NCBI RefSeq assembly: GCF_001672295.1
Contig: NZ_JXMS01000001.1
Span: forward strand, 186,001-250,000
Origin: Halodesulfovibrio spirochaetisodalis
GTDB taxonomy: Bacteria > Desulfobacterota > Desulfovibrionia > Desulfovibrionales > Desulfovibrionaceae
DNA: 64,000 nucleotides
Direction: 5' to 3'
This document shows, piece after piece, positions 436-44,785 of the stretch. A program made the translations under genes and the position numbers. The notes beneath the pieces were generated by a model. The model searched no databases. It was not told the origin of the DNA and saw only the letters and a list, made by a program, of their open reading frames with translations. The stretch's first letter is position 1; each line of letters opens with the position of its first letter.

Positions 436-462
436 TATTCTCTCCTTGAAATAGTGTTGCAG

Positions 463-518
463 AAAAAAGGGCAGAATGAACAAGCAAGTACGCTGCAGTT
501 GCTATTCTGCCCCTTTTT
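463..518 (-). promoter_or_regulatory. Terminator-like hairpin in the symporter leader (possible attenuator)
   Basis: Arms at 504-518 and 463-477 are complementary (GGGCAGAAT/ATTCTGCCC core). On the minus-strand transcript the 3' arm runs straight into TTTTTT. The structure lies between the predicted start near 530 and the ribosome binding site at 441-447, so it could terminate transcription before the symporter. The loop is long (26 nt). An attenuation role is inference. Confidence 0.5.
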
Positions 519-541
519 ACTCTTGCTGCACTGTTACATGA

Positions 542-556
542 GCAGAATACGTGCCA
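542..556 (-). promoter_or_regulatory. Sigma-54 (-24/-12) promoter for the 2HCT symporter
   Basis: Read on the minus strand, 556 to 542 is TGGCACGTATTCTGC. This matches the consensus TGGCACGNNNNTTGC at every fixed position except one T (C here), with correct GG-to-GC spacing. Transcription would start near 530. The nearest regulator upstream is an NtrC-type activator, which fits. An 8-bp perfect inverted repeat, TATTGATT/AATCAATA, at 574-592 lies about 45-60 bp upstream of the predicted start and could be an operator. Confidence 0.75.
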
Positions 557-759
557 CCGTTGTCTTTAGGAGATATTGATTGTAAATCAATAGGTTATGT
601 GATTGTTTGCTCCGTCGTAACTGGAATGGGGTAGGGATGTGTCCTATCGTGCAGGAGGCTGGGGGGAGAAAATGGATGATGAGTGGTTGACCAATCTATT
701 GATATGCATGGCAAAAGGGGGAATACTTCCCTGTTTTTTATGGTCAAAGTGTACATAAG

Positions 760-792
760 AAAAAAGTGTCCTGAAAAACAGGACACTTTTTT
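760..792. terminator. Bidirectional terminator after the response regulator
   Basis: Perfect stem AAAAAAGTGTCCTG (760-773) and CAGGACACTTTTTT (779-792) with loop AAAAA, giving a U-tract in either direction. It closes the sensor-regulator operon before the symporter promoter. Confidence 0.85.
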
Positions 793-824
793 ATCTTATA
801 AAATAGATTGTTATGTGTATTGTC

Positions 825-2249
825 TTATTGATCTGGAGGTGTTGTCTTGTTCTGCTGGACACCATGCTCTTTTAAGAGGGCATACAGACGTGAACGGGAA
901 AGGCCGGAGATTGCACAGGCTTCTTTTATGGAGCGGTCCGTAAGAAGCAGCAAGTCACTCAGATATTGTTTTTCCAGTTTGCGGTAGGCTTCGGCACGAA
1001 AATCATGCAGTGTTGGCAAATCTTCTTTGCGTTCGGGAAGCGGTGCGATTCGTTCCGGTGATTGGTCAATACGCTGCTTGGCCACAGAAATTCTGATGAC
1101 CTGCGGAATATGTTGTGAAAAAAGTAGCGGCTCGTGTCGGGCTGCGGACACAGCATGATCAACTGCATGGCGTAGTTCACGTACGTTTCCAGGCCAGTCA
1201 TATGCTTCCAGAACCTCCAGTAATTCAGGATCAACCTTTTTGGGCGGAATGCTGTATTGGTTGGAGAAGTCGGTAATAAATTTGTCCACAAGCAGTCGAA
1301 TGTCTTCTTTTCTTTCTGTAAGGGACGGAAGCGAAAGGTGCAGCGCCTTGATGCGGAACAGCAAGTCGCTTCTGAATGTTCCGTTATCTACCATTGCTTC
1401 AAGGTTGCAGTTGGTTGCGGCGAGCAGACGAAAGTCACTGTGCTGCTCCTGTGCGCTGCCGATGGGGCGGACTGTATGCTCTTGAAGAATACGTAGAAAC
1501 TTTTTTTGTACATCCAGCGACAGCTCGCCAATTTCATCCAGAAAAAGTGTGCCCCCGTCCGCCTGCATGATGAGGCCGGTGCTTTCTCGTGAGGCACCAG
1601 TGTATGCGCCTTTGGTATAGCCGTATAAAATCCCCTCTGCCAACGAGTCCGGCAGGGCGGCACAGTCCACCACCACAAACGGTTTATCCGAACGTTTGCT
1701 GTTTTCATGTATAGCTCGGGCAAACATTTCTTTTCCGACACCTGTTTCACCCGTGATGAGCACATTCACATCGCTTGCAGCATACTGTTCGACCGTGCTG
1801 AGCACTTTGCGGATGGCAGGGCTTTCCCCCACAATATTTTCACGCTGCAGCGGCAGTGAGGATGGCTGCGAAGTTGTAAGGCGTTTTTCCCTGTAGCGAA
1901 TAGCGCGTTCCAGCGTTACCGCGATCTGGTGAATGGAATCACTTTTCTGGATATATTCCCATGCACCGTCAGCAATAGCCTGTGCTGCACCTTCGGGCTC
2001 ACCGGCACCGGTAATAATGATGACCTCCGGTGAAGGCTCCTGCGCTTTCAGCTGCGGCAGCAGTGTCAGGCCGTCGCCGTCCGGCAGGCAGACATCAAGG
2101 AACACTGCCGCGAAGTCTTCTTCAGTTGCGCGCTGTGCGCCTTCTTGAAGAGTTCGGGCAAACGTCACTGTGTGTCCTTGACGCTGTGACGCTCTGGAAA
2201 GTGTATAGCTGATTGAAGGATCATCATCGATTATGAGAACTAAAGCCAT
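825..2249 (-). CDS. NtrC-family sigma-54-dependent response regulator
   Basis: This 474-residue protein has the three classic NtrC domains. The receiver (about 1-120) has acidic pocket DDD at 8-10 and phospho-acceptor D52 (FLDVCLPDGDG). The AAA+ domain has Walker A GETGVGKE (about 167-174), Walker B GGTLFLDEIGEL, and a sigma-54-contacting loop that reads GAYTGA instead of GAFTGA. A Fis-type helix-turn-helix sits at the C-terminus (ACAISGLSRSRLYALLKEHG). It should drive sigma-54 transcription when phosphorylated. Its start overlaps the end of the sensor kinase gene by 10 bp, so the two are translationally coupled. The likely target is the downstream symporter, which has a sigma-54 promoter. 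Confidence 0.95.
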   Translation of the reverse strand: MALVLIIDDDPSISYTLSRASQRQGHTVTFARTLQEGAQRATEEDFAAVFLDVCLPDGDGLTLLPQLKAQEPSPEVIIITGAGEPEGAAQAIADGAWEYIQKSDSIHQIAVTLERAIRYREKRLTTSQPSSLPLQRENIVGESPAIRKVLSTVEQYAASDVNVLITGETGVGKEMFARAIHENSKRSDKPFVVVDCAALPDSLAEGILYGYTKGAYTGASRESTGLIMQADGGTLFLDEIGELSLDVQKKFLRILQEHTVRPIGSAQEQHSDFRLLAATNCNLEAMVDNGTFRSDLLFRIKALHLSLPSLTERKEDIRLLVDKFITDFSNQYSIPPKKVDPELLEVLEAYDWPGNVRELRHAVDHAVSAARHEPLLFSQHIPQVIRISVAKQRIDQSPERIAPLPERKEDLPTLHDFRAEAYRKLEKQYLSDLLLLTDRSIKEACAISGLSRSRLYALLKEHGVQQNKTTPPDQ

Positions 2250-5068: not shown

Positions 5069-5681
5069 CCCTATCTCTCCTTGGTGTGAAAGCCAGCAGT
5101 AATGGCGCTGTCTGAAATGTCCGTTCGTTATTTCGAAACGGTCTTCTTTGTATTTCTAACAGCCGTAGCGCTATTCAAGGGATTATGCAACGGAGGAGAA
5201 TTTGTGTGGAAAGTTGATGGCTTTGGGAAACGTCATTGTGAGTATGCCCATGAACACAAGAGTGTATACGCTAATTATTGATAGCAGCGGCAGAGTGGAT
5301 GAGGTTACGCGCTGCTTGCGAGGATCTTCGTGAGCAAAGCGTTGGCGAACGCATTGCTGTTGTTGAGTCGGGAATTTTTTTATGGGCTACAGGCAAAAAA
5401 ACGAAAATAATTTTGTCTTCTGAGTATCCATTAGTGGTGCAGAGCAAAAATGCTTTCAAGAAATATACTGAGAGCCAACATTTTTTAACTATTAGCAGTT
5501 CAGTAACTGAGGGATGATGAAGTGATTGCTGTACGGTGTTCACGGGGCGTAAAGAGTCATGAATAACTCCTGCTCGGTCTCAATAAAAATGATGGTGTCC
5601 ACTCACAATGAGTGGTGTACCACTGCGACCCGACAATGTGCTCCATAACGAGCATATGTAATACCCCGATTGAGAATGTGT
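5069..5681. other. Intergenic stretch without a convincing gene
   Basis: About 610 bp lie between the divergent sensor kinase and lipoprotein genes. A 79-codon frame at 5278-5517 has no good ribosome binding site or recognisable motif. A small inverted repeat, CCACTCA/TGAGTGG, lies at 5599-5615, about 70 bp before the lipoprotein start. The stretch presumably holds the two divergent promoters, but I see no strong -10/-35 pair. Confidence 0.5.
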
Positions 5682-6359
5682 ATGAGAAAATTACTAGTTT
5701 TTGTTTTGTTGCTTGGCCTTGTGACCGGTTGTGCTGCCCGAAAACCATCCGGTTTTTTAGGAGATAACAGCCAGTACGAGCAGCTTCAGGAAGACCCAGA
5801 AGTGAGCAACGCTAAGCTGTGGCGTAAGCCGGGCATGGGTGCCTTGGCAGACAACTATACCGCAGTAATGATTGCGCCGGTGAAACTTTTGATTTCCAAG
5901 GAAGTTCAGGAGGATAACGATCTTACTCCTGAAGAGTTGGAAATGCTCAAAACCTTTTTCCACGATGCCTTGGTGAGAGAGTTAGGCAAAGTGGTTACTG
6001 TGGTAGATAACGCAGGGCCAGAGGTGCTCACTCTGGAGCTTGCGATTACCAATGTTAAGGAAACACCAAAAGTGATGAACGCCGTAAGCTCTGTCCTGCC
6101 TGTGGGTGTAGCAATTACGTTTGTGTCCAAAGCAGTAACAGGTGAACACAGAAATGTGGGCGAAACTGTCATCGAGGCAAAAGCTCGGGATTCAGTAAGC
6201 GGGGAAGTGGTTGCCACATTCTCCGAAGTGAACACCGGAAATAAATATTCGCTGTACAACTACGAACGCCTTGGACAAGTAAAAAATGCCATTGATGAAT
6301 GGGCAGAAAACATGCGTGACAGGCTGGAAAGTAAGCGAAACATTGCAGCAGCAGAATAG
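5682..6359 (+). CDS. DUF3313-like outer-membrane lipoprotein
   Basis: This secreted lipoprotein has about 225 residues. It starts MRKLLVFVLLLGLVTGC, a signal peptide ending in an LVTGC lipobox, so it should be lipidated on the Cys. The mature part (KLWRKPGMGALADNYTAVMIAPVK, then a domain rich in strands, and a C-terminal DEWAENMRDRL helix) resembles DUF3313 proteins, whose function is unknown. Starts at TTG 5670, ATG 5676 and ATG 5682 are all in frame. I chose 5682 because the signal peptide then begins naturally and GAGA lies 6 nt before it. The gene stands alone and ends about 120 bp before a strong bidirectional terminator. Confidence 0.8.
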   Translation: MRKLLVFVLLLGLVTGCAARKPSGFLGDNSQYEQLQEDPEVSNAKLWRKPGMGALADNYTAVMIAPVKLLISKEVQEDNDLTPEELEMLKTFFHDALVRELGKVVTVVDNAGPEVLTLELAITNVKETPKVMNAVSSVLPVGVAITFVSKAVTGEHRNVGETVIEAKARDSVSGEVVATFSEVNTGNKYSLYNYERLGQVKNAIDEWAENMRDRLESKRNIAAAE

Positions 6360-6478
6360 ATACGCACTATAGCGAGCAATACAACTAAGCTTATGCGTTG
6401 CAACCTTATTCGAGAAGCACAAAGCTCTGGTATCGAATGGGGTGGGTAACGTGAAATTTGTTTGTTGGATTATGAACG

Positions 6479-6509
6479 AAAAAGCCCTCCATTTTGGGAG
6501 GGCTTTTTT
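6479..6509. terminator. Bidirectional terminator
   Basis: AAAAAGCCCTCC (6479-6490), loop ATTTT, GGGAGGGCTTTTTT (6496-6509). It serves the lipoprotein gene on plus and the antitoxin gene on minus, whose stop codon (6508-6510) overlaps the T-run. Confidence 0.9.
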
Positions 6510-6738
6510 AGCATGATGTCTGTTTATCAATTTTATCTGCAACCCAAACTTTGATCACCGCCTGACGGGTAACACCAAGCCGAGTCGCTTCTTGGGCGAG
6601 CGCATCAACCATCCAGCTTGGGAAATCAACGTTTACGCGCTTTGTCTTTTTGTTGGGACGGCGAGCATTTTTGATATCCAGATGTTTTGTAAGGTCTTTG
6701 CCTTTTTCAAATGCTTTATCAAACTCAGAGGCTTTCAT
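6508..6738 (-). CDS. BrnA-like ribbon-helix-helix antitoxin, without a BrnT toxin
   Basis: The 76-residue protein resembles BrnA/CopG antitoxins: an N-terminal MKASEFDKAFEKGKDLTKHL, a basic linker (RRPNKKTKR), then VNVDFPSWMVDALAQEATRL and GVTRQAVIKVWVADKI, the strand and two helices of a ribbon-helix-helix DNA-binding fold. It has an AGGAGGT ribosome binding site. In known brnTA pairs the toxin gene lies directly upstream. Here only 39 bp separate it from an HNH endonuclease gene, so BrnT is absent and the two probably form one transcript. It may repress that operon or be an orphan antitoxin. Confidence 0.8.
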   Translation of the reverse strand: MKASEFDKAFEKGKDLTKHLDIKNARRPNKKTKRVNVDFPSWMVDALAQEATRLGVTRQAVIKVWVADKIDKQTSC

Positions 6739-6777
6739 AGTAACCTACCTCCTATTCTCTGCTGGTAGATGTTATGA

Positions 6778-7830
6778 TCATTTTCTTTTCAAAATATTTC
6801 TAAGCTCTTCGACCGTGTACCCGCTTTTGTGAATGACTCTATGGCAGTTTGCGCAGACAGGAATTAAATCCTTTTTGGGGTTAACTGGCTGTGGGATTCG
6901 AGACTCATGGAGCGGCGTTACGTGATGTACTTCAATAAAGCCTTTGCCTGCTTCGCCGTAAACATTTTCAAAGTTAAATCCACAAACCTTACAAGTAAGT
7001 CCGTGGTGTTTGATTGCGGCTTTTCTGTTAGCCTGACTACGCTTGCTTGCAGTGGAAAGGTGGATGAAAGTTTCGCCTTCAAATCGAATGATTGATTCTT
7101 CTGGGAAGTCGTCTTGAATACTTTCAGTCGCGTTGGCAACAGGTTCGGATGAAGAGAAAGCAACAGTGTATACATCAAGCTCTTCGGTTTGAGTGAAGTG
7201 TAGCAACGGCTTGTGTTCAGGTGCCCGACCGGTTTCATAAAGTTCAGCAATGAGAGGAAACGTATTGCTTATAAGTTGTGAGAAGTCGGCAAACCACAGT
7301 AAGCGTACACGATCTTCTCTGACGTCTGGCTGGAGAACTGCTTTATATACATCATCGTTGTGTCGTAGGGTTATTTCACGTTTCGGTGTGGTAGCATTTG
7401 TTCCAAAGAAAAAAGTTAGTTGCTTAGGAATTCCTGTTCCATTGTGAACAAAGCTTGATTTGTCCATCTGTTTGAAACAGGTTTGATGCGAAGATATTTT
7501 CCAAGAGTCTTGGCTAAATGGAAAGCCATTTGTGAGTTTGGGTAAGTTGTGTTTGTGAGCTTTAGTTACCACAATTTCTCGAAGTAATTTTTGGTAATTA
7601 AATAGGGGCTTGTATCCCGCAATATGTGGATAGTCATGACTGGTAAGTATGGCGCTAATGTTTTGATGTTTAAACTCAATTGAGCCTTTATTTCGGTTGT
7701 TGAGTTTTGGAGAAAGTGCTGTGCGAAATTCAGTTTTATTGTAGGTGACGCCATTAAGCTCATTTCGCAGCATAGCTATGTAGGATTCTACAGCTTCTTC
7801 AATTTCTAATTTGTCCCAATCTCTTGCCAT
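6778..7830 (-). CDS. HNH endonuclease with large N-terminal domain
   Basis: The 350-residue protein has a C-terminal HNH nuclease: a zinc-binding CKVC pair (about 280-283), EVHHVTPL (about 300-307, catalytic His pair) and VCANCHRVIH (about 325-334). The N-terminal 90 residues (VESYIAMLRNELNGVTYNKT, IEFKHQNISAIL, GYKPLFNYQKLL) match a domain I recall before HNH modules in uncharacterised, restriction-like nucleases. The middle region is not recognised. The start has a good AGGAGG site. It is probably cotranscribed with the BrnA-like gene. No methyltransferase lies nearby, so a modification-dependent (McrA-like) or defence role is possible but unproven. Confidence 0.85.
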   Translation of the reverse strand: MARDWDKLEIEEAVESYIAMLRNELNGVTYNKTEFRTALSPKLNNRNKGSIEFKHQNISAILTSHDYPHIAGYKPLFNYQKLLREIVVTKAHKHNLPKLTNGFPFSQDSWKISSHQTCFKQMDKSSFVHNGTGIPKQLTFFFGTNATTPKREITLRHNDDVYKAVLQPDVREDRVRLLWFADFSQLISNTFPLIAELYETGRAPEHKPLLHFTQTEELDVYTVAFSSSEPVANATESIQDDFPEESIIRFEGETFIHLSTASKRSQANRKAAIKHHGLTCKVCGFNFENVYGEAGKGFIEVHHVTPLHESRIPQPVNPKKDLIPVCANCHRVIHKSGYTVEELRNILKRK

Positions 7831-8227
7831 AACTTGCTATCCTCCTGAAACTGCAAGGAAGATAGATTTCTACGTTGAATTGTTTTTCATTGCAATGTTG
7901 CTCAGTTTACCAATCTTGACCCAACTCCCAAAAAAGACTAATTTTTCCTTAGGTGCTCACAACACCTTTAGTACTCAGCGGCCATTCCGCTCCCGTAAGA
8001 AGTGGGTTTTTTGCGTCCTATGACCAAGATGCACTGTCCTTAGGATTAGTGCATCTTGCGACAGGAAGTTACTTGACTTACATATGCCAATCTTTTGGTC
8101 GGGAGTACGGAGGCGATACAATACCCGCAAGGGGAAAACCTTCTGCCGTTCTGAGTACGGTTGTGAGCTCCCGACCTTTTTATTTAGAAAAAAGGTCAAC
8201 TTCACAAAATAACTCAGGAGTTGCCTC
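7831..8227 (+). promoter_or_regulatory. Structured leader region before two tiny genes
   Basis: The gap holds several hairpins read on plus. CAAGATGCACT/AGTGCATCTTG (8025-8035/8048-8058) is a perfect 11-bp stem. GGTCGGGAG (8097-8105) pairs with CTCCCGACC (8168-8176), followed by TTTTT, a terminator-like shape. GACCTTTTT (8173-8181) can instead pair with AAAAAGGTC (8189-8197), so the last two are mutually exclusive. A ribosome binding site AGGAG lies before the ATG at 8228. A frame at 7953-8291 runs through the whole structure and reminds me of phage Ash-family leader frames. A switch or small RNA is inference. Confidence 0.45.
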
Positions 8228-8425
8228 ATGGCACAATCAATTCACATTCCTACCGGAATCTCTCCAAGTATGGACGAGCTACACGGCGTAGCTGTATCGC
8301 TCTATCAAATCCGTAAAGGTATTTCACTACTTCAAGACAGTATTGCTCTGGATGACATTGCAAGCCAACCCATTCTGCCCACTACTTACGTAGATAGCAG
8401 GGACAGCAGAAGGGGCGCAGCATGA
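8228..8425 (+). CDS. Small hypothetical protein of accessory type
   Basis: This is a 65-codon gene (MAQSIHIPTGISPSMDELHG...) with AGGAG 7-8 nt upstream. I do not recognise a domain. The pattern ISPSMDELHGVAVSLYQIRKGISLL suggests one amphipathic helix, and the tail is Arg-rich. Its stop overlaps the next start (ATGA, 8422-8425), so the two small genes are coupled. Such pairs of tiny proteins behind a structured leader are common in phage satellites and integrated elements. Confidence 0.65.
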   Translation: MAQSIHIPTGISPSMDELHGVAVSLYQIRKGISLLQDSIALDDIASQPILPTTYVDSRDSRRGAA

Positions 8426-8619
8426 ACCAGCCAGTAGAGCAGATTGAACCAACAGATTACGTAATGAATCTGTACGAGATCGCACGATCTCTCAGGTACT
8501 TGCACGAAGATTGTAGCGAAAGATACCCAGAACTTATTTTCATTTTAAAAAGTATGGAAAAGTTCGTAGGTGCTGCCGCCGCACACTTTGATGGAATGGA
8601 AGAACGGATGAAGGAATAG
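8422..8619 (+). CDS. Small hypothetical protein, coupled to the previous gene
   Basis: This is a 65-codon gene starting inside the stop of the upstream gene (ATGA overlap). It is predicted to be mainly helical (DYVMNLYEIARSLRYLHEDC, then LIFILKSMEKFVGAAAAHFD). No known motif is seen. It resembles its neighbour in design (a helix of similar length around Y-I/L-R-x-L), so the two may be distant duplicates. A strong terminator follows at 8642-8670. Confidence 0.65.
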   Translation: MNQPVEQIEPTDYVMNLYEIARSLRYLHEDCSERYPELIFILKSMEKFVGAAAAHFDGMEERMKE

Positions 8620-8641
8620 CATTCAATTAAATGGAAAGATG

Positions 8642-8670
8642 AAGCCCCCTACGTTGGTAGGGGGCTTTTT
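8642..8670. terminator. Terminator after the small-gene pair
   Basis: AAGCCCCCTAC, loop GTTG, GTAGGGGGCTTTTT: an 11-bp GC-rich stem with a U-tract. It can also serve the minus-strand gene that ends at 8677. Confidence 0.9.
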
Positions 8671-8676
8671 GAATAA

Positions 8677-8892
8677 TCAAGCGTGCTCTGCTTTGTATTG
8701 ATCCCAAGCAGTTGAGAGTGCATTCAGGGCACCGTTACAAGCATTACATCTGGTTAAATGCTTATATAAACGGGGATAGCCGGAATTTTTGTTTGGTAGA
8801 TTAGTGTCTTTGGCCATATCTCGTGCAAGATCGCCGACAGCTGAGTTTTCATTTGTTCTGGTTAAGAGCCAGTCTATAAAGTTTGGTTTCAT
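8677..8892 (-). CDS. YozE/SAM-like small protein
   Basis: This is about 71 residues from ATG 8890-8892; AAGGAG lies 9 nt upstream, which favours it over the TTG at 8901. The start KPNFIDWLLTRTNENSAVGD followed by LARDMAKDTNLP is the signature of YozE-type sterile-alpha-motif-like proteins (compare F-x-x-W-L...D-x-x-GDLA-D). The second half has a Cys pair (RCNACNGAL), unusual for that family and possibly metal-binding. The role of YozE proteins is not known. Confidence 0.75.
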   Translation of the reverse strand: MKPNFIDWLLTRTNENSAVGDLARDMAKDTNLPNKNSGYPRLYKHLTRCNACNGALNALSTAWDQYKAEHA

Positions 8893-8992
8893 TCCGTACA
8901 ACTCCTTAATTGCTTTGTTTCTTTTAACATACTACAATGTTATGTTTTTCCAAGATTTTTTTTAGAATTAAGGAGTAAAAAAATATAACTAG

Positions 8993-9358
8993 TTATAAGA
9001 AGTTTCGATAGTCAGTGTTAAGCGCTTCAGCTAGACGATGCGCCATATTTTTTCCAATAGAGCGTTTGTTGTTCTCCATTTCAGAAATATGGTGCTTTTT
9101 GCAACCCACAGCGTTCGCAAGCTGTTCTTGTGTCATTCCTTCCCGAGTTCGTGCGCCACGTAATAAACGTGCAGGAGTGGGTGCTCCTAGTACTTCTTCA
9201 GCAGAGTACGTTGGCTCTTCCCGTGTCGTAACGTCGTAGCCTTCAGTCTGTAGCGAAGTCAGAATCTTTTGTATGATGGCATCAGAATTGTCCTCAGATA
9301 CTCGGATGCAGATTTCTGTCATGCCGCTAGTATGGGGCTTTTTCGTGAGTTCCAACAT
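8993..9358 (-). CDS. HigA-like XRE antitoxin
   Basis: The 121-residue protein has a C-terminal XRE helix-turn-helix (LLRGARTREGMTQEQLANAV, GCKKHHISEMENNKRSIGKN) and an N-terminal part that would bind and neutralise the toxin. The ATG at 9356-9358 has a GAGGTA site 6 nt upstream. It overlaps the upstream toxin gene by 32 bp, the toxin-first order typical of higBA-type pairs. It should also repress its own operon. Confidence 0.9.
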   Translation of the reverse strand: MLELTKKPHTSGMTEICIRVSEDNSDAIIQKILTSLQTEGYDVTTREEPTYSAEEVLGAPTPARLLRGARTREGMTQEQLANAVGCKKHHISEMENNKRSIGKNMAHRLAEALNTDYRNFL

Positions 9359-9611
9359 ATCGTACCTCTATTAATTGTATTGTCCCTTTAATTTCTTTCC
9401 AGACAGCAACATAGCGGGGCTTGCCCTTGTTCAAATGGCAATGATGTTCCCCAGCACGTCCTTTAAGTTTCCCATAATGTGGCCAACTATGGCAGGCCGC
9501 ACCGTCACGCCGGATGTCGTTTACTAACAGGAGTAGAGCGTCTTGCATGTCAGGTGGTAACTTTGTGGCTTGCTTTCGTGCTTTCGATGTAAATTCTACT
9601 GTCCAGCTCAT
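9327..9611 (-). CDS. RelE/HigB-type toxin
   Basis: The 94-residue protein matches small RelE/ParE-superfamily toxins: an N-terminal helical hairpin (VEFTSKARKQATKLPPDMQD), then strands with HHCHLNKGKPRYVAVWK and the C-terminal IEVRYVGTHEKAPY typical of RelE-like mRNA interferases. It would cleave mRNA at the ribosome when freed from the antitoxin encoded just downstream. There is no clear Shine-Dalgarno before the ATG at 9609-9611. The mRNA-cleaving function is inferred from family. Confidence 0.9.
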   Translation of the reverse strand: MSWTVEFTSKARKQATKLPPDMQDALLLLVNDIRRDGAACHSWPHYGKLKGRAGEHHCHLNKGKPRYVAVWKEIKGTIQLIEVRYVGTHEKAPY

Positions 9612-9823
9612 GAGATGAGGTTACCATTTTTAGGTATCTAGTCAAGTGAGCAGCAGGCTGGGGAAGAGCTTTTTGTAGTTGTAATGCCTTATTTCGTATC
9701 CCCCGTATTCGACAGGATAAAATAATTCCACACCTACTACTTGTTGTTCTGCTGTACCATACGTGCTAGGTGGTTCAGCGGTATGACAAAGCAGATTTAA
9801 AACGAATTTTAAAGGATGAAATA

Positions 9824-10276
9824 ATGTACGATTATGCTCCTGCGTATGGGGTGTGGGTCGAAAGAATAGATGGTTTTATGCAGGCTGGAAAAGCATTTGA
9901 AGGAACAGTTGAGGAGCATCAGCTTTCTATTGTTCCAGATACGAATGCAGCCGTATATAACGTGAAAGTAGACGGATGGCTTGTTGGCACCAGCAGTGAG
10001 CCGGAGGCTATTTTATCTTGTATAATCCAAGCATATGAAGAAACGATTATTGAAGAAGAAGTAGAAGTAGAAAAAGAAGACGCAGTAGAAATCGCCAAAG
10101 CTGTTGCAAAAGAAAAGGCTGTTGACGCTGGCAAAGACCCGAAGAAGGTTGGCGAAGCCATTTTAAAAGCAGCTATGGAAGCAGAAAGTGCAGACTACGA
10201 AGTCGATCCGGATGATATTGCTGCCGTAGTTGCAGAGCGTATAGAAGAATTTCTTTCTGCCTGCGAAGCTGTCTAG
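9824..10276 (+). CDS. Hypothetical acidic protein
   Basis: This is 150 residues from ATG 9824, which has AAAGGA 8 nt upstream. A longer frame opens at GTG 9770 but with no ribosome binding site. The first 70 residues look like a small globular domain (APAYGVWVERIDGFMQAGKA, NVKVDGWLVGTSSEPEAI). The rest is a charged helical stretch (EEEVEVEKEDAVEIAKAVAK and onward) ending in an acidic helix. I recognise no family. The gene stands alone in the accessory region and is followed by a clear terminator. Confidence 0.7.
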   Translation: MYDYAPAYGVWVERIDGFMQAGKAFEGTVEEHQLSIVPDTNAAVYNVKVDGWLVGTSSEPEAILSCIIQAYEETIIEEEVEVEKEDAVEIAKAVAKEKAVDAGKDPKKVGEAILKAAMEAESADYEVDPDDIAAVVAERIEEFLSACEAV

Positions 10277-10310
10277 TTACGAACTGTCTTCTCATATTTT
10301 AGGCTGAGCA

Positions 10311-10346
10311 AAAGCCGCTATGCATAGCAATGCATGGCGGCTTTTT
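10311..10346 (+). terminator. Terminator after the acidic protein gene
   Basis: AAAGCCGCTATGCAT pairs with ATGCATGGCGGCTTTTT, giving a 14-15 bp stem and a U-tract. Confidence 0.85.
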
Positions 10347-10484
10347 CTTTGTGATGAATATGAAGCGTGCGGGGGCTGTGCTGATAACTAACTCTTCACT
10401 CGCAGGAAGGGACGAGGTGCCAGCTCGATTGTGTGATTCGAACCATGTTTGAACTGTCGCAAAACAGACTACAAAAAGTCATGC

Positions 10485-10523
10485 TAAAAAAAACGCCCTG
10501 ACTCTTCGAAAGAATCAGGGCGT
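10485..10523 (-). terminator. Terminator of the polysaccharide deacetylase gene
   Basis: On minus: ACGCCCTGA...TCAGGGCGT followed by TTTTTTTT (10485-10492). It lies 35 bp after the deacetylase stop codon. Confidence 0.85.
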
Positions 10524-10557
10524 GAAATGCATGGTGAAGGCTTAACGCCTTCCATTC

Positions 10558-11625
10558 TTATTGCAGCTTGGAGCACGGAATCCATGAGAAACCGGCATTG
10601 GATACGAGGTCGTCCAATGTGGGCAGAGCTTTTTGTGCTTTGGGGTGGATGTCATGAAAAAGGATAATGCCTTTGCGCCACAGCAGCATGAGTGTTGTCA
10701 CTCTATCTGTTACTTCTTGAGCGCTGAGCTTTCTGTTCCAGTCCTGACTGTCGATATTCCAGAGTAGTATTGAAAAGTCATTTTTCTGCGCCCACTCCGC
10801 CATTTCTTTTGTTCTCATTCCATACGGCGGGCGGAACTGTATTCGTTTATCTGTGTAGTTTGCTAATACGTTTGCAGTCTTTTTATAGGAATCGATAAAG
10901 TATGGAAGCTTTTTGTGCGGGGAATGCTCCCACCCGTGAGCGGCAAGGCATTGGTTTGCATACAATCCAGCATCTGGTGTCTGTTTTTGCATTTTTTTTC
11001 CTAAAATAAAGAAAAAAGCAGAGACATCCATCTTGTTTAACTGCGCAATGGTGGACTTTGTATATGCCTTGCTGGGGCCATCATCAAAGGTCAGGAGAAA
11101 TTCGCCGTCTTTAAAGGAAAATCCGGTTGTTTCATTCTGACCATGTGTGGCGATTTCGCTTGGTATTCTTGGAAACAGAGAAGCAAGGCGTACTTGTTCA
11201 TACAGGTACCGTGTGTAAAAGTTGCCGCTGGCTGCATACCAGTCCTTATATTTGCGCCAAGGTGAAGATTTGGCGGCGATGACGAGTTGTTTCCAGGTAG
11301 GAAGAACGTTGCTGCTGGATGCGTTTTTATAGTTGTGGCGTAGAATAGTTTTGGTTTTCTTCAGCCAGTTCTGTACAGACGCATCATTGCTTTTCTTAAT
11401 TTTGGTCAGACTGATAATATCAGCTTTGGTCGCAAGGGGCGTGTTTGCAATAACTTCTACAAAACGCAGAATTTCTGCTTCTGATGCCTCATTGAATGTT
11501 TTTGTATCGACGATTGCTACCGGCCATGTTGTTCTGTCAATAAACGCAACTTTGGTAGAGCCGGCTGCAAAGCACGTAGAGCTTATGGTGCAAAAAATCA
11601 CCATGAGAATAAGTTTTTTCAGCAT
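10558..11625 (-). CDS. Secreted polysaccharide deacetylase (NodB family)
   Basis: This 355-residue exported protein has a signal peptide (MLKKLILMVIFCTISSTCFA). The C-terminal half carries the NodB-fold motifs of carbohydrate esterase family 4: FLLTFDDGPS (catalytic and metal Asp), AAHGWEHSPHKKL (metal His pair), RPPYGMRT, NIDSQDW and ILFHDIH. All key residues are present, so it should remove N-acetyl groups from a cell-envelope or extracellular sugar polymer. The N-terminal 170 residues are not recognised. The TPR protein gene lies immediately upstream on the same strand, but a terminator (11638-11678) separates them. Confidence 0.92.
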   Translation of the reverse strand: MLKKLILMVIFCTISSTCFAAGSTKVAFIDRTTWPVAIVDTKTFNEASEAEILRFVEVIANTPLATKADIISLTKIKKSNDASVQNWLKKTKTILRHNYKNASSSNVLPTWKQLVIAAKSSPWRKYKDWYAASGNFYTRYLYEQVRLASLFPRIPSEIATHGQNETTGFSFKDGEFLLTFDDGPSKAYTKSTIAQLNKMDVSAFFFILGKKMQKQTPDAGLYANQCLAAHGWEHSPHKKLPYFIDSYKKTANVLANYTDKRIQFRPPYGMRTKEMAEWAQKNDFSILLWNIDSQDWNRKLSAQEVTDRVTTLMLLWRKGIILFHDIHPKAQKALPTLDDLVSNAGFSWIPCSKLQ

Positions 11626-11637
11626 AGAATACCTGTT

Positions 11638-11678
11638 AAAAAAGCACGCTGCGCAGAGTAACCAGTGCAGCGTGCTTT
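11638..11678 (-). terminator. Terminator of the YfaP/TPR protein gene
   Basis: AAAGCACGCTGC (11641-11652) pairs with GCAGCGTGCTTT (11667-11678). Read on minus it ends in TTTTTT. It separates the TPR gene from the deacetylase gene. Confidence 0.85.
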
Positions 11679-11684
11679 CATAGC

Positions 11685-12863
11685 TTATTGGTTAAGTTTG
11701 TTTTCCATGCGGCGTATGCCTTTATGGTATGCGTTATGCTCTCTGTTTTCTAAAGCATAGCGGTAGTTTGTCAGTGCAGCATTCCATTCGCCTTTTTTCT
11801 CATAGATACGGGCAATGTTGTAGTATGAGCTGGCGCGGATGATATTGGCGCGAGAGCCGGAAGCAAGATCAATGGCTTTTCTGTTTGCCCACAATGCTTC
11901 AGCGTATAAGTTCAGTTTCGGGAACGTGACACCAAGGTTGCTGTATGCCTGACTTAATTCCGGATCAAGGTTGATAGCGCTGGCAAACAGACGAGCTGCG
12001 TTTTCATAGTCTTTCGCCTGATACGCAGCCTCACCTTTTTTGTTGAGCTGCTGTGCTCTCACCGTAGCGGTGTTTGTACGCTGAATATTGCTTTCAAAAG
12101 ATTCCGCATCGATGATCTGGTTCAAATAAGATGTTAATGTATCTGTTCCGGAGCAGGTGGTGTACTTGTTGATATCGTGGAATGCGCCGCGCTCGTCTAT
12201 ACCAAATACAACCCAGTCTGTACCTTTGGTGGTAGGGTCAACTTCAAATGTACGCAGGAGAGATTTACCTACGTATACATCAACGCGTGCATGGCTGCGT
12301 GCCAGTTTTGTAGAGGAGCTTCGCCCACCGTTAGAGTAGTCGCGCACAGCGTACACATATTTTTTTCCGCGTTGCTGCTTGGTAATGGTGATGGTTTCCG
12401 GCCCATAGCTGGTGGTGTCATCCACATCCAGATTAGAGCCAGTTCCACGTTTCTTTTTGAAATAAACATGGTTGTTTTCATACACTAAGTGGGAATCCAA
12501 GTCTGACGGCTTGTAACCCCATGTAAGAACAACACGCAGGCCGTCCAGATTCTTCATTTCAGGAGACAGCGCGTAGGTGTATCCGTCACATGGACATGTG
12601 GCGATGAGAGTAGAGTACCCGTCTTTTTCAATGAGCATCATAGTGTCATTGTCATCAGGTAGCCCCTTACTGGTGGCGTCACCATTTGCATTTGTCATGG
12701 CATGTACAGATTTTTGGCCAGAACGCTGCCACGTAACTTTTGCGCCTTTAATAGTCTTATCTTTTACAACAGCACTAAGAACATGAACCTTACCCGCATG
12801 AGCTGTAGTATTCCCCAACAGGAGCAGTGCACAAGCGAATGTGAAAACGAATTTTTTTACCAT
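11685..12863 (-). CDS. Exported YfaP/DUF2135-like protein with TPR repeats
   Basis: This 392-residue protein has a signal peptide (MVKKFVFTFACALLLLGNTTAHA). The first part (about 25-105) is a carboxypeptidase-regulatory-like fold (IKGAKVTWQRSG...TNANGDATSKGLPD). The middle (about 107-235) has LRVVLTWGYKPSDLDSHLVY and VYAVRDYSNGG, the hallmark of YfaP/DUF2135 domains. The last 120 residues are TPR repeats (GEAAYQAKDYENAARLFASA, AYSNLGVTFPKLNLYAEALW, YYNIARIYEKKGEWNAALTN). It is likely periplasmic and binds other proteins. Its function is unknown. Confidence 0.8.
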   Translation of the reverse strand: MVKKFVFTFACALLLLGNTTAHAGKVHVLSAVVKDKTIKGAKVTWQRSGQKSVHAMTNANGDATSKGLPDDNDTMMLIEKDGYSTLIATCPCDGYTYALSPEMKNLDGLRVVLTWGYKPSDLDSHLVYENNHVYFKKKRGTGSNLDVDDTTSYGPETITITKQQRGKKYVYAVRDYSNGGRSSSTKLARSHARVDVYVGKSLLRTFEVDPTTKGTDWVVFGIDERGAFHDINKYTTCSGTDTLTSYLNQIIDAESFESNIQRTNTATVRAQQLNKKGEAAYQAKDYENAARLFASAINLDPELSQAYSNLGVTFPKLNLYAEALWANRKAIDLASGSRANIIRASSYYNIARIYEKKGEWNAALTNYRYALENREHNAYHKGIRRMENKLNQ

Positions 12864-13310
12864 GAAGAACTCGCTGGTTAATTTGTTGGTATGTATACAC
12901 GTACAGAGTACGATAACTTAAAACATGAGCAGCCAGTTGAATTGGTATTCATGGCTGTATAGCAGTATGTGCTTATCGGCATGTAAAATGTTTATTAGAC
13001 TGATGCAGAAAGAATAAACACCGTTAAGCAGTAAGGTCATTGAATTATTTTTTATGCGAAGTCAATGCAGGTGTATGTAACACTCTCCATCTTGTCAGTG
13101 ATATTAACTGTTGCATCAGAAAAAGCATAAGTCATTTCTATATATCGGCTGTGTTTGATGTAATAAAAATTTTTCTTTTATGAGTAAAATGAGCACTGCT
13201 GTGTTTGTAGTGTGGTGATGCTGTTATTATGTGCTATGGTTGCATCAGTGCTTGGTTAGTTTGTGATGTAGCAGGGGAGAAGTGGGAAGCGAATGAAAAT
13301 ATTTTGGCAC
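12864..13310. other. AT-rich intergenic stretch
   Basis: About 450 bp lie between the TPR gene and the first tmRNA-end repeat. I find no frame with a ribosome binding site and no strong hairpin. It probably contains the TPR gene promoter (minus strand) and decayed element DNA. Confidence 0.5.
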
Positions 13311-13372
13311 AAAAAAAGCTCTAATCCCTTTCAGGATTAGAGCTTTAAAACCTCATGGTGGAGGCGGCGAGA
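13311..13372 (-). repeat. Copy R1 of the ssrA 3' end plus terminator
   Basis: These 62 bp are identical to 17429-17490: the terminator hairpin (AAAAAAAGCTCTAATCC... with arms GCTCTAATCC/GGATTAGAGC) and the tmRNA acceptor/CCA end (TGGTGGAGGCGGCGAGA). Identity stops where the T-loop would continue; the next 45 bases still look loosely like ssrA. This fits an attachment site duplicated by site-specific integration. Confidence 0.85.
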
Positions 13373-13613
13373 GTATGTAAGCCGCTTCCGAATGCTCATG
13401 ACTCCAAGCTTTCTCGGAATCAGGTTCAATTACGGTGTGCAGGTTTATGTTGCCCGAAAGTGTGTAGGTTTTTAAGGGGGAAAATTTGCTTGTTGTTTTG
13501 ATGTTTAACGTAGTGATGTTGCGATAGAAATGCTCTTATGCTAGCCCTTATCCTCTGTTGGCTCTGGCGAGCTGTTGTTGAGTTATAAGTTAGACTTTTT
13601 CCTTGGAGGAATA

Positions 13614-13925
13614 GTGTCAGAATATGCACCTTTTGAATCTTATGCTGTTAATTGTTTACGTTCGTTAATGAGATTGAGGGAAGTAGCGGACGTGGATATT
13701 GATGGAGTTACTTTAAGCTTGGAGCTAGTTCCTCAGAGGTCATATAAAGCATATATAAATGGTTGTTCTATCGGTGAGTTCGGTAGTCCCCAGCATGGAT
13801 TTAATCTTATGACTGATGCTCTGGAGGGAGTCGTGGTAGCTGATTCACCTGAAGAAGTACCTGCTGTGGTTGGGAATATAATCGATAAGCTGCTGCATAG
13901 ATATGAACCTGAAGATGGGGAGTGA
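13614..13925 (+). CDS. Hypothetical protein in the tmRNA-end array
   Basis: This is 103 residues from GTG 13614, with GGAGG just upstream; an in-frame TTG at 13575 lacks such a site. It begins MSEYAPFESYAVNCLRSLMR and has a helix, a strand pair (VTLSLELVPQRSYKAYINGC) and an acidic tail. No family is recognised. It lies in the segment between tmRNA-end repeats R1 and R2, so it is cargo of an inserted element. That it is a real gene is moderately likely. Confidence 0.5.
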   Translation: MSEYAPFESYAVNCLRSLMRLREVADVDIDGVTLSLELVPQRSYKAYINGCSIGEFGSPQHGFNLMTDALEGVVVADSPEEVPAVVGNIIDKLLHRYEPEDGE

Positions 13926-14012
13926 TGAGCCTCGTGTAAAAGCGTGGTTGCTGATAATATAAACAGATACCAGCAGCCACGAGTTCGATTCTCAAACCGG
14001 ATATCGAATTGA

Positions 14013-14144
14013 CTACCTCCCATCTTTCTTTACCCTCTGCACGGTCTTGGTAGAGCTTCCAAGCTCCTTGGCGATAGTTGAATGGCTGATGCCCTCAGTA
14101 AGCATCTCTTTGATTTTATCTTTATAGTCATCTGAAAGGATTCG
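14013..14144 (-). pseudogene. Remnant of a recombinase/transposase-type helix-turn-helix
   Basis: On minus, a 43-codon frame begins right after a stop codon (no start codon) and ends at 14013: RILSDDYKDKIKEMLTEGIS followed by HSTIAKELGSSTKTVQRVKK. This is a Hin/resolvase-like helix-turn-helix as found at the C-terminus of serine recombinases and some transposases. The rest of the protein is missing; the GNAT gene starts in its place on the other strand. It is probably a relic of the mobile element that built this region. Confidence 0.55.
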
Positions 14145-14146
14145 TT

Positions 14147-14611
14147 ATGGTTTGTAACATTAAGCAGGTAACAAAGAATAAGAAGCAATACTTAAGCTTA
14201 TTGCTACTTGGAGATGAGCAGGAGTCCATGATTGAGAAATATCTTAAATCCGGACAACTGTTTGTGCTCGAAGACAATGGTGTGAAAGCCGTCTGTGTGG
14301 TTACGGATGAAGGTAACGGGATTTGCGAACTGAAAAATATCGCTGTAGAACCAAATGCTCAACGACGAGGGTATGGTAAGAGGCTGATAAATTTTCTGAT
14401 TGCTCATTATTCAGGAAGATTTCAGCTAATGCTAGTAGGGACAGGAGATGTTCCAAGCGCAATCAAGTTCTATAAAAGTTGTGGGTTTGAATGTTCTCAT
14501 CGTCTTGAAAACTTTTTTACCGATAATTATGACCATCCTATTGTTGATAGCGGTGTATTGTTGAAAGATATGATTTACCTGAAGCAAAAAATACCAAATA
14601 CCGCAGCGTAA
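14147..14611 (+). CDS. GNAT-family N-acetyltransferase
   Basis: The 154-residue protein has the acetyl-CoA-binding core: ELKNIAVEPNAQRRGYGKRL (motif A, with the Q-R-R-G-x-G-K signature) and AIKFYKSCGFECSHR (motif B). It should acetylate a small molecule or protein; the substrate is unknown. It has an AAAGGA site 7 nt before the ATG. It is the main cargo of the R1-R2 segment of the tmRNA-end array. Confidence 0.88.
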   Translation: MVCNIKQVTKNKKQYLSLLLLGDEQESMIEKYLKSGQLFVLEDNGVKAVCVVTDEGNGICELKNIAVEPNAQRRGYGKRLINFLIAHYSGRFQLMLVGTGDVPSAIKFYKSCGFECSHRLENFFTDNYDHPIVDSGVLLKDMIYLKQKIPNTAA

Positions 14612-14710
14612 TTCTCTAGTGCCGAAGGCAGGACGTAGGCTGAGTGGATTAGTTCTTCTGAAGTAGTGTGCAGAGGCTGTTTGAAAGAGGTAATTAGCCC
14701 TTGATGTGCT

Positions 14711-14750
14711 CCCAAAATGTACTAGAAATGTACTAAAAACACATTTTGGG
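14711..14750. repeat. Tandem ATGTACTA repeats inside an inverted repeat, next to R2
   Basis: ATGTACTAGAA (14717-14727) is followed directly by ATGTACTAAAA (14728-14738). Both are framed by CCCAAAATGT (14711-14720) and ACATTTTGGG (14741-14750). Tandem TGTACTAAA-type repeats close to an attachment core recall the arm sites of tyrosine integrases at tRNA/tmRNA insertion points. This is inference from pattern. Confidence 0.5.
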
Positions 14751-14766
14751 GTTACCTATAGATACG

Positions 14767-14809
14767 CAAAAAGCTCTAATCCCTTTCAGGATTAGAGCCT
14801 TACAATCTG
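14767..14809 (-). repeat. Copy R2 of the ssrA terminator (partial)
   Basis: AAAAAGCTCTAATCC... to GGATTAGAGC (14768-14798) is identical to the ssrA terminator hairpin. The next 11 bp match with three changes, then similarity ends; the CCA/acceptor part is lost. It still should work as a terminator. Confidence 0.8.
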
Positions 14810-14889
14810 TATTTTTCAGATGACGCTTGGATGTATCTCAAATGCGAATCAAAGCCTAGACGTCCTCACACGCGTCAATAATATTCTGA

Positions 14890-15972
14890 TTACTTTTGCC
14901 TATCAACTGGGATGACGTAAGGAAAAGACTCAGTGTAATGTTTTGGGTTTGGAATACCGTCTGACATTGGAATTCCAAGATACGTGGAAAAAACGACATC
15001 AGATGGATCATCATCAAGAGGGCGTCCGCCACTGCTGCCGATGCCGTATTTGGCTTTAGTACCGATCTTATACATAAGTACATCCGGAGTTAATTGCTCC
15101 GCTACGGTATTTGCATATTCGGTAACATTTTTTTGCCCGCCTGAAACACTAGCTGCCCGATAGACGTTATTTGATATCGTATTCTTATGTCGATCATCCC
15201 CATCTGGTCTGTGTTGGTCGTGCTCCAGCCTTGTCGCAGGGGAGTCCCAGAGGAAAATGTACGGCATTAAAACATTACCCATGCGATTGACCTGAACCCA
15301 TTCATTACCATGATGGTGATCCATAACTGCTGTTGTGCCGTAATAGTATACTTCGGGGCTCAGCATTGTATTTGGAATCTCCATCACAATCGCACTGATC
15401 CTTGCGTTGGTGAATATGTCCTTGGCAGTTTTTTTGAAAGCGTTTTTGTCTAGTGTTCCCATTGTGATACTGTTCTGGAGAACGCCAAAGTCAAACGCAT
15501 CAACAAAGTACGGCTCTAAGATTCTTCCTGTCCAAACTTTTATCTCACCGTTCAGTTCAAACTTTTGCCCAACCTGAGCATCTGCAAGCGTTTTGCCTTT
15601 ATCACCAATTTTCGCATTAGGGTTATCGATTTTTCCAACCCGTATTTTATCGCCATCAAATATGAAGGTGTAGGTAACACCTGTTTTAATGTCCTTGTCA
15701 CTAGCTATATGAATATTGTAGAGCCCGCCTGAACCAAAATCTGTTTTTGCGGTCAGGTTAGCAGATGGCCCGCCCTTGCCCGGTTTTGATGGGTTGGCGG
15801 TTAGAATGAATACCGTCGATTTCATATCCGGCGTATTAAAAACAAAAACATCACCAATATTATATTCAGGATAGTGAGATACTAAATCAGTTTGAAAATG
15901 ATGCGCAGAATGGGCAGGAAAACTCATGAGCAAAAATATAATGGTTAGAATTGGAATTTTGTATTTCATCAT
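14890..15972 (-). CDS. Exported DUF4331-like protein
   Basis: This is about 360 residues from ATG 15972 (GAGGAA site), with a signal peptide (MMKYKIPILTIIFLLMSFPAHS). Sequence such as HFQTDLVSHYPEYNIGDVFVF, TVFILTANPSK and the later DAFDFGVLQNSITMG, ARISAIVMEIPNTML and VNRMGNVLMP resembles DUF4331 proteins, which are secreted beta-rich proteins of unknown function. It also has a His-rich spot (VMDHHHGNEW). A longer frame goes to 16032 but without a ribosome binding site. It is the sole cargo of the R2-R3 segment. Confidence 0.75.
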   Translation of the reverse strand: MMKYKIPILTIIFLLMSFPAHSAHHFQTDLVSHYPEYNIGDVFVFNTPDMKSTVFILTANPSKPGKGGPSANLTAKTDFGSGGLYNIHIASDKDIKTGVTYTFIFDGDKIRVGKIDNPNAKIGDKGKTLADAQVGQKFELNGEIKVWTGRILEPYFVDAFDFGVLQNSITMGTLDKNAFKKTAKDIFTNARISAIVMEIPNTMLSPEVYYYGTTAVMDHHHGNEWVQVNRMGNVLMPYIFLWDSPATRLEHDQHRPDGDDRHKNTISNNVYRAASVSGGQKNVTEYANTVAEQLTPDVLMYKIGTKAKYGIGSSGGRPLDDDPSDVVFSTYLGIPMSDGIPNPKHYTESFPYVIPVDRQK

Positions 15973-16363
15973 GGTTCCTCGATGATTTAAAAAAAAATGA
16001 GAAAATTCGGTGCTTATTCCAGTATGCTTCATTTTCTCAGCAACTTTTTTTTATAAAAGTATAAGTTTGAAAACGACTACCAGTGTATGTTTGAACTGCC
16101 CGTTTGAGTTTCACTAGTGATGTTTGTGAGCGTGTTCGATTCTATCAAACAGAAGTTGCGATGCGATGGCAGTGTTTTTAATAATAAGTTGGGAGAGGGG
16201 CGCGTTTTGAGGTTGCTAGAAACGTAGCTAAGTTGTTCGTATGTCGAATAGTGTGCCGTTTGGTGAGGGCAGCTTGAAGAAAAATGTCTGTAAGTATAGG
16301 TTGTTGCGAATTAATAGTGTTTACACGGTCTGCAGAAGATTGCATCTAACTAATTTTAGAAAC
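15973..16363. other. Intergenic stretch before repeat R3
   Basis: About 390 bp with no supported gene. It holds the upstream region of the DUF4331-like gene and ends at the R3 copy of the ssrA terminator. Confidence 0.5.
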
Positions 16364-16416
16364 AAAAAAAGCTCTACTCCCTTTCAGGATTAGAGCTTTA
16401 AAATCTCATGGTGGAG
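16364..16416 (-). repeat. Copy R3 of the ssrA 3' end plus terminator
   Basis: 53 bp match 17429-17481 with two changes (CTACTCC for CTAATCC; AAAATCTC for AAAACCTC). The match includes the tmRNA CCA end and the first bases of the acceptor stem (TGGTGGAG) before it diverges. One change lies in the terminator stem, so this copy has drifted. Confidence 0.85.
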
Positions 16417-16515
16417 CTGACTTCTTATGCACATCACTCTATGACGGCTTGGAACCTAAAATCAGTGCGGTGTGTAGAAAAGTGAAGTCGGAAAGTGAAT
16501 AGTTTTACGTTGTCG

Positions 16516-17157
16516 TTATAATCCATAGTCTCCTTTTACTAAAACTATAGATATTCGTTTTGCAGGCCAGCTTTTTTCTGTAATAGTCCAAGTGTTACAG
16601 ATGCGCTCTGGACTTTTACAGTTCATGCATTTTCCTGTCTTAGTACATGGTGTTTTAGAACCATGACGCTTTGCATTAAGTGGAGCTGCAACTTCGCGTA
16701 AGCGAGTCATTGCATCTTCTAGCGTGTCTACAATCTTGTTTGTGCCTATGGTAAGAACAACTTTATTTGGGCCCCATACAATGCCACCAACCCTGTTGCC
16801 AACCATGTCTAAATTCACGATCTGTCCGCCTGATGTTAGGGCATTGCTGCCTGTGAAAAAAACTTCAGACAGAAGAGCTTCTCGGCGACGTTCTAAAATT
16901 TCTTTTCGTTCTACTCCTGACTCAAACGTGTCTAGAAAACGCCAGCCATCTCGCTGCGGTAACGATTTGAGGTCGTCCAGTACACCTGTTTCGATAAAGG
17001 TTACGGAGTCTCCGTATGAAACGAGCCCAGGGGTAATGCATGGCAAAATATCATCTGTAATAATTTTTCGTGCATGTTCAAGGTCTTCAGCAACAAAGAC
17101 TTCAAAATTATTTGTAGTTAATGCGCCGATTGTTTTTTCAAAAAGCTGAGGATTCAT
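16516..17157 (-). CDS. LUD-domain (LutC/YkgG-like) protein
   Basis: The 213-residue protein matches the LUD domain (DUF162) of lactate-utilisation proteins: GLVSYGDSVTFIETGVLDDL, FFTGSNALTSGGQIVNLDMV, GNRVGGIVWGPNKVVLTIGT. A C-terminal Cys group (PCTKTGKCMNCKSPERIC) is typical of the stand-alone clostridial/deltaproteobacterial form and may bind a metal. The start has a GGAGAG site. It is cargo of the R3-R4 segment of the array; no lutA/lutB partners are nearby. Substrate unknown. Confidence 0.88.
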   Translation of the reverse strand: MNPQLFEKTIGALTTNNFEVFVAEDLEHARKIITDDILPCITPGLVSYGDSVTFIETGVLDDLKSLPQRDGWRFLDTFESGVERKEILERRREALLSEVFFTGSNALTSGGQIVNLDMVGNRVGGIVWGPNKVVLTIGTNKIVDTLEDAMTRLREVAAPLNAKRHGSKTPCTKTGKCMNCKSPERICNTWTITEKSWPAKRISIVLVKGDYGL

Positions 17158-17253
17158 GAACTCTCCAGTTTAAATGACAGTTGTCTATAGAATAGTTGCG
17201 GCGGGTGGCCATTTATTGCTGTTAAGAAATTGTTATCAGCGGCAACTGAGAAC

Positions 17254-17430
17254 ATGATTTCACGTTTATCTATTGTAGAACTCAGGTCAACCAGAACATT
17301 AAGCTCCATAGCTGAGGGCGGTATTGATGAAAATGGTGCAGGGTATATCGCTGAAGATACTGTGGGTTATTGGGAAATGGCAAAAGCCGTGGGCTTAACA
17401 TTGCTTCCGTTTAAGAGGTCGTTACAATAA
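17254..17430 (+). CDS. Possible small protein next to ssrA
   Basis: This is 58 codons from ATG 17254 (TTG 17230 is also in frame): MISRLSIVELRSTRTLSSIA and onward. It has no clear ribosome binding site and no known motif. It ends on the edge of the ssrA terminator repeat. It may be a gene fragment left by insertion. Weakly supported. Confidence 0.25.
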   Translation: MISRLSIVELRSTRTLSSIAEGGIDENGAGYIAEDTVGYWEMAKAVGLTLLPFKRSLQ

Positions 17431-17473
17431 AAAAAGCTCTAATCCCTTTCAGGATTAGAGCTTTAAAACCTCA
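17429..17473 (-). terminator. ssrA terminator (repeat R4, native copy)
   Basis: On minus, GCTCTAATCC/GGATTAGAGC arms with loop TGAAAG and a run of seven T. It directly follows the tmRNA CCA end. It is the master copy of the repeats at 13311, 14767 and 16364. Confidence 0.92.
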
Positions 17474-17834
17474 TGGTGGAGGCGGCGAGAATCGAACTCG
17501 CGTCCGAGAATGGTCCACTCGAAGCTTCTACAGGTTTAGTTCTGGATTAATTTTTCTTACTGTACGCTTTGCCCCAGAACAGGCGACGTAAAGCCAGTTC
17601 GCTGTATAAGTTTCGCTCCAGCTGCAGCAAACGCCTACTGAAACTAGTCGGATAAGTGTTTTGTCATTCTCTAAGCCTATCTGACGTCAACAAAGAGAAC
17701 GTGGCGGTCAATTAAGCTGCCATTGCGTATTCGTAATCGTTTGCAATTACTTTAATGCCGCTTTTTACGAGGCCAGCGGCGCCTCGACCTGCAACTCCGG
17801 CTTCTTCTATCCCCGTCGAAACCAGTGCGCCCCC
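17474..17834 (-). ncRNA. ssrA: Transfer-messenger RNA (tmRNA)
   Basis: This 361-nt RNA rescues stalled ribosomes. The 3' end on minus gives a T-arm GCGAG-TTCGATT-CTCGC, acceptor strand CGCCTCC, discriminator A and encoded CCA; the 5' end GGGGGCG (17828-17834) pairs with it. The tag frame (17712-17744) reads ANDYEYAMAA then TAA. The 5' and 3' halves together give the usual one-piece tmRNA. It is followed by its own terminator, and the 3' end is a well-known integration target, used here several times over. Confidence 0.96.
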
Positions 17835-44458: not shown

Positions 44459-44471
44459 ATAAAATCGATAC

Positions 44472-44708: not shown

Positions 44709-44785
<77 letters not shown>

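Follow-up and report, generated by a model that had tools for sequence, protein, structure and literature searches.

How did a row of displaced copies of the end of ssrA, the gene for transfer-messenger RNA (tmRNA), come to lie downstream of that gene in Halodesulfovibrio spirochaetisodalis, with no more than one to three small genes in each gap? The row lies in a 64,000-nucleotide stretch of contig NZ_JXMS01000001.1 (assembly GCF_001672295.1, positions 186,001 to 250,000), hereafter the window, and was described in a first-pass annotation as a cassette-like array left by serial site-specific insertions at the ssrA 3' end. We consider it very likely (probability about 0.85) that ssrA islands accreted in tandem and then underwent internal deletion, leaving relics resembling cis-mobilizable elements (CIMEs); the locus is a well-preserved example of a known process. 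Islands with a tyrosine integrase would insert serially at the ssrA 3' end, each insertion would leave a displaced acceptor/terminator sequence at the far (attR) end of the island, and the islands would then lose internal DNA, including integrase and resolvase, until what was left comprised a few cargo genes, the ends and arms of sites, and one stub each of integrase and resolvase. We infer that deletion caused the shrinking, as we infer the order of the insertions and a shared origin of all segments, including those with the DUF4331 and LUD genes. The target gene and the copies of its end are as follows.

17474-17834, minus strand: ssrA (tmRNA), the integration target, identified with ARAGORN and Rfam
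17429-17473, minus strand: ssrA terminator, which together with 17474-17490 forms the reference copy of the repeat
16364-16416, minus strand: stray ssrA end with terminator, 96% identical over 53 nt, two changes
14766-14808, minus strand: copy of the terminator hairpin lacking the acceptor part; hairpin identical at 29/29 nt, match of 41 nt at 93%
13311-13372, minus strand: outermost stray ssrA end with terminator, identical to 17429-17490 at 62/62 positions

The repeats are real. All four copies share the orientation of ssrA, as had been reported, and displaced 3' tmRNA fragments in the same orientation, one of the features by which islands targeted to tDNA or tmRNA are recognised, are hence present. 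Pattern matches at ≤3 mismatches in the window were compared with 100 shuffles, and neither the four matches of the 29-nt hairpin pattern nor the two of the 21-nt acceptor core were equalled in any (0/100 in both cases). A search of the whole genome yielded one extra match of the repeat, on contig C2 (34 nt at 85%). The folding energies of the four terminators range from -16.4 to -20.3 kcal/mol. The acceptor core is kept at 13311 and 17429, partial at 16364 and gone at 14766. For the 14766 copy, the annotated identity of the hairpin was borne out but the gradual decay of the remainder was not, as the acceptor part ends abruptly next to the intact hairpin, which, judged from the letters, looks more like a rearrangement junction. 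No further core was found in window positions 1-13310 with ≤4/19 mismatches; since the same search missed the 16364 copy, partly decayed ends could escape detection there.

The annotation further stated that no integrase remains, which turned out to be incorrect. Six integrases from sister genomes, encoded beside ssrA or inside islands, were compared with the window. The comparison drew on ten genomes of the genus, namely the genome holding the window (G000) and nine sister genomes (G001-G009); L-numbers denote the DNA stretches compared (L036 in G001, L068 in G002, L067 in G009 and L088 in G066, a genome of another genus). The following recombinase remnants and attachment arms were identified.

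14606-14716, minus strand: first 37 codons of a DUF6538-type tyrosine integrase, kept as a stub
14717-14765, minus strand: attL-side arm from terminator to integrase start, as after ssrA in G001, within the match of 14605-14779 to L036
14016-14123, minus strand: last 36 codons of a serine resolvase, kept as a stub, 80.6% identical to L068:205-759 (G002)
13373-13476, minus strand: attR arm flanking the 13311 copy on its inner side, resembling G002 and G009 sites
16411-16504, minus strand: weak attR arm, found with nhmmer, flanking the 16364 copy on its inner side

The integrase stub matches the DUF6538-type integrases of G001 (37 codons at 73%, E 4e-12) and G002 (29 codons at 62%, E 8e-6); the four other integrases gave nothing better than E >0.4 in the window. 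Searched alone against Pfam DUF6538, the stub aligns to positions 1-29 at E 6e-4, which is under the curated cut-off. The DNA from stub to terminator (14605-14779) and the post-ssrA DNA of G001 (L036) share 88.6% identity over 176 bp, and the position of the stub, directly distal to the 14766 copy, is the slot held by the same integrase family after ssrA in G001 and G002. The stub abuts the end of a GNAT gene on the opposite strand, and this direct run into the gene end is a pattern as after deletion. The full-length G002 parent of the resolvase stub matches Pfam Resolvase and HTH_7. When the whole of G000 was searched with the G001 integrase, two places were found, the window stub (E 6.5e-11) and an integrase on contig C12 with 31% identity. 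The latter lies within 5 kb of a resolvase 60% identical to that of G002 (C12:51098-55362), and this pair is perhaps a related island at another target.

The arms point in the same direction. That at 13311 is 77% identical to two sites of G002 (L068) and 71% identical over 114 nt to one site of G009 (L067). An nhmmer profile of these four arms, with the 16364 site left out, was run against 49 sequences (1.73 Mb residues) and gave a single further match, at window 16411-16504 (E 1.2e-5). An attR arm is kept by two of the three stray copies, in one case weakly, and the third copy keeps the attL side and the stub.

ssrA is an integration hotspot in the genus. An integrase directly follows ssrA in five of the nine sister genomes (DUF6538-type according to Pfam in G001 and G002, another type in G007, G008 and G009); in G003 the contig ends at ssrA, and the stretches of G004, G005 and G006 that were searched contain no relative of the six integrases. 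Displaced ssrA ends are also present in G001, G002, G008 and G009, and the distance from a conserved Fe-ADH gene (on contig C1 of G000 at about 182-183 kb) to ssrA ranges from 4.9 kb (G005) through 20.5 kb (G000) to 51.9 kb (G009). These observations, together with the integrase stub and the attR arms that recur in sister genomes, lend good support to the original proposal of serial site-specific insertion at the ssrA 3' end. G009 holds a 3.6-kb parallel of 13311-14808, composed of an attR arm, a copy of the e52 repeat described below, a full-length resolvase (87%), an integrase cut to 142 aa, a terminator and a core, and this segment is a half-eroded relative of the one in the window. The sister genomes show fuller, half-eroded and nearly erased stages of one element type, so that its decay can be followed. 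In G005 a GNAT gene follows ssrA, and a relative with 58% identity lies next to the G002 attR on its outer side. The terminators of ssrA and of the stray end are alike in G008 (96% over 83 nt) and partly in G009 (86% over 78), and terminator sharing was consequently dropped as a sign of recent origin particular to G000. When L037, L068, L036 and L063 were compared with L043 and L075, the terminator behind ssrA proved unlike that of the displaced end in G001 and G002 but common to both in G008 and G000, so certain islands seem to exchange the tmRNA terminator.

The segments between the copies contain the following cargo genes.

13611-13925, plus strand: hypothetical protein, no Pfam or PHROG match
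14147-14611, plus strand: GNAT acetyltransferase (Pfam)
14890-16032, minus strand: DUF4331 protein (Pfam)
16516-17157, minus strand: LUD-domain protein (Pfam)

Pfam agrees with the gene content given earlier, and the hypothetical protein matches no family. In a family sample of 119 genomes, which includes six of the ten genus genomes, the DUF4331 protein was found in one, G000 itself, and LUD matches in 82; G000 has two of the latter, the second on contig C22 with 48% identity. The LUD and DUF4331 genes are followed by the terminator copies at 16364 and 14766, which could, from their position, end the transcripts of these genes, a candidate role that is probably a by-product. No transfer genes were recognised among the named open reading frames (ORFs) of 13311-17429, and the small ORF of 17158-17428 has no PHROG match. 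Nine window proteins from 8993-17157 gave no match at E 1e-5 in the first 20 ssrA stretches compared (nine from the genus, 11 other, several short). After 16 ssrA stretches were added, the sole matching window gene was that at 9770, in G002 at E 1e-8 (matches in two G000 stretches not shown).

A repeat of ~52 bp with inverted arms AGTTCGATTC / GAATCGAATT, here termed e52, is present nine times across five of the ten genomes of the genus.

window 13958-14016, plus strand: e52 copy immediately following the resolvase 3' end
L068 756-814, 2231-2289, 3598-3655 and 5385-5444: e52 copies
L067 13425-13482: e52 copy
L040 14865-14924: e52 copy
L063 18262-18322: e52 copy
G002:C13:1035-1089: e52 copy just after a resolvase fragment

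Apart from the last, all copies lie in the compared ssrA-region stretches. A resolvase 3' end directly precedes e52 in three of the nine places; elsewhere the flanks vary from copy to copy, as expected for a recombination site. Its inverted arms are like a recombinase core site, and e52 and the tmRNA T-loop have GAGTTCGATTC in common. The predicted e52 hairpin shows two-sided changes at none of its 11 pairs. Among 59 family genomes searched, five matched e52, of which three gave weak matches (E 3e-5 to 5e-4). Four direct copies lie within 5 kb in G002. It is conceivable, if rather unlikely, that shrinkage of the islands is driven instead of random, with e52 as candidate site of the adjacent resolvase or of a second integrase and recombination between direct copies trimming islands to single-e52 remnants, as in G000, G005 and G009. 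The repeat provides a testable hypothesis for the shrinkage of islands.

A search for a 17-mer of the acceptor matched 52 of the 119 family genomes, and in five (G000, G001, G026, G066 and G129; counted by hand) two matches lie on the same contig and strand no more than 25 kb apart. The annotation had suggested looking across the group for ssrA-end repeats flanking single genes; paired ends do recur; the pair in G066 encloses two small genes and that in G129 an integrase. In G026 the two 17-mers are 20 kb apart, and no integrase was recognised by eye among the ORFs of G026. A candidate ssrA end on C19 of G008 (L074) was rejected, being a tRNA-Asp end. The G066 segment (L088 3408-4407) measures 983 bp between ssrA and a second ssrA end, each end with its own terminator, and codes for an HTH protein (Pfam) and a 101-aa protein without Pfam match. 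The latter is 62% identical to the product of window 9327-9611 and the HTH partners share 36% (related window genes 8993-9611). This gene pair is a putative RelE-like toxin-antitoxin system.

Several observations weigh against tandem accretion followed by deletion. The outermost copy, at 13311, is the best preserved, though it is expected to be the oldest if every insertion hit ssrA. Next to 16364 and 17429 the six integrases revealed no convincing stub, matches outside 14606-14716 having E values of 0.068 or worse, and the evidence is thinner for the LUD and DUF4331 segments, with one attR arm between them. Positions 17158-17428 have no match in the nine sister genomes and, among the ten genus genomes, match only themselves. 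The arm repeats differ, being of TACACA type at 13311 and of GTACAT type at 14766, and 13311-14808 may therefore be a fusion of two elements, or the arm may belong to a neighbour; the same mixture of arm types occurs in G009. Furthermore, the clean single-repeat site that the annotation had suggested looking for in related strains was not found among the sister genomes compared, one per species. G005, considered as an empty site, was rejected as such since it carries an island-type e52, and is just the shortest version seen.

The preservation of the outermost copy could be explained by insertion at a stray end, by gene conversion, or by recent arrival of 13311-17429 as one composite unit from another strain of the species, with its inner copies already decayed. 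The last is a variant of accretion with deletion and does not exclude it; it accounts for outer copies identical over 62 nt around altered inner ones, and tandem transfer of a CIME with an integrative and conjugative element has been observed according to the available text of PMC5704250. Nonetheless we regard it as possible but doubtful, as no arm like the known ones was seen behind the ssrA terminator, the integrase is gone from the unit, and gene conversion or stray-end insertion would look alike. Improbable, in our view, is the proposal that each segment is a mini-element without an integrase of its own, consisting of one to three genes flanked by ssrA ends and mobilised in trans by integrases that resident islands supply and that are specific to ssrA. 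No integrase stub was detected in the segments with the LUD and DUF4331 genes, the sites at 13311 and 17429 are both intact, and the 983-bp interval of G066 with its two genes is the nearest parallel; however, 13311-14808 carries both an integrase and a resolvase stub, the only other integrase relative in G000, on C12, is just 31% identical, and no separate copy of a segment was seen elsewhere, 17158-17428 included. Of the two origins that the annotation had left side by side, shrinkage of larger islands is supported for 13311-14808, and movement of small elements in trans, which may yet apply to the LUD and DUF4331 segments, has no positive evidence in the window. Independent recruitment of look-alike terminators has a negligible chance of being right, for although 14766 keeps the hairpin alone, the acceptor sequence that was to decide this point survives at 13311 and in part at 16364, and the copies are bordered by arms and an integrase stub. 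An integron gene-cassette array was likewise rejected: the ORFs and Pfam matches of the row include no integron integrase (attC sites were not searched for), and its boundaries are ssrA ends.

The zone of accretion also reaches beyond the row.

7906-8670, strand unspecified: island-like DNA, with 74-76% identity to island DNA close to ssrA in G008 and G009

The resemblance of this DNA to the G008 and G009 islands indicates an accretion zone wider than first described. An Rfam match to sRNA-Xcc1 (66.8 bits) is located at window 8097-8184, inside the stretch common to these islands. Elsewhere in the window, at 44382-45277, a tRNA gene cluster with repeats comprises four tRNA-Met (CAT) and two tRNA-Trp genes.

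The row records how islands accumulate at a hotspot and erode down to cargo and scraps of sites, and island finders that require an integrase gene would miss it. In the accessible part of the Islander study (PMC4383910), tmRNA is the most enriched target, with 125 tandems of two or more islands and four of three or more. As in Islander islands, an intact tmRNA gene is accompanied by displaced 3' fragments in the same orientation, but Islander requires an integrase gene per island, and the segments here, with just a 37-codon stub between the tmRNA gene and a fragment, would fail that filter. The closest precedent, as far as the consulted sections of PMC3146451 go, is provided by the Dehalococcoides ssrA islands, several of which follow one another downstream of ssrA, each with ssrA or a directly repeated copy of its end at the boundaries. 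Fifteen of the 31 islands are without an integration module and were proposed to be cis-mobilizable elements, and alongside the integrase there is a small PinR-like serine recombinase. The Dehalococcoides islands, as described there, use the serine recombinase DsiB as integrase and a 20-bp repeat, whereas here the integrase is of the DUF6538 tyrosine type, the repeat includes the terminator and the segments span just 1 to 1.6 kb. The passages seen of PMC5704250 set out tandem accretion of CIMEs in three steps: integration, decay that keeps attL and attR, and insertion of a next element at the same site. Unlike in that model, the middle site (14766) has lost its core, and not every segment keeps two predicted usable sites. 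Like a CIME, 13311-17429 has lost integration and transfer genes, the integrase being a stub, and the row fits the serial insertion and decay of the three-step model.

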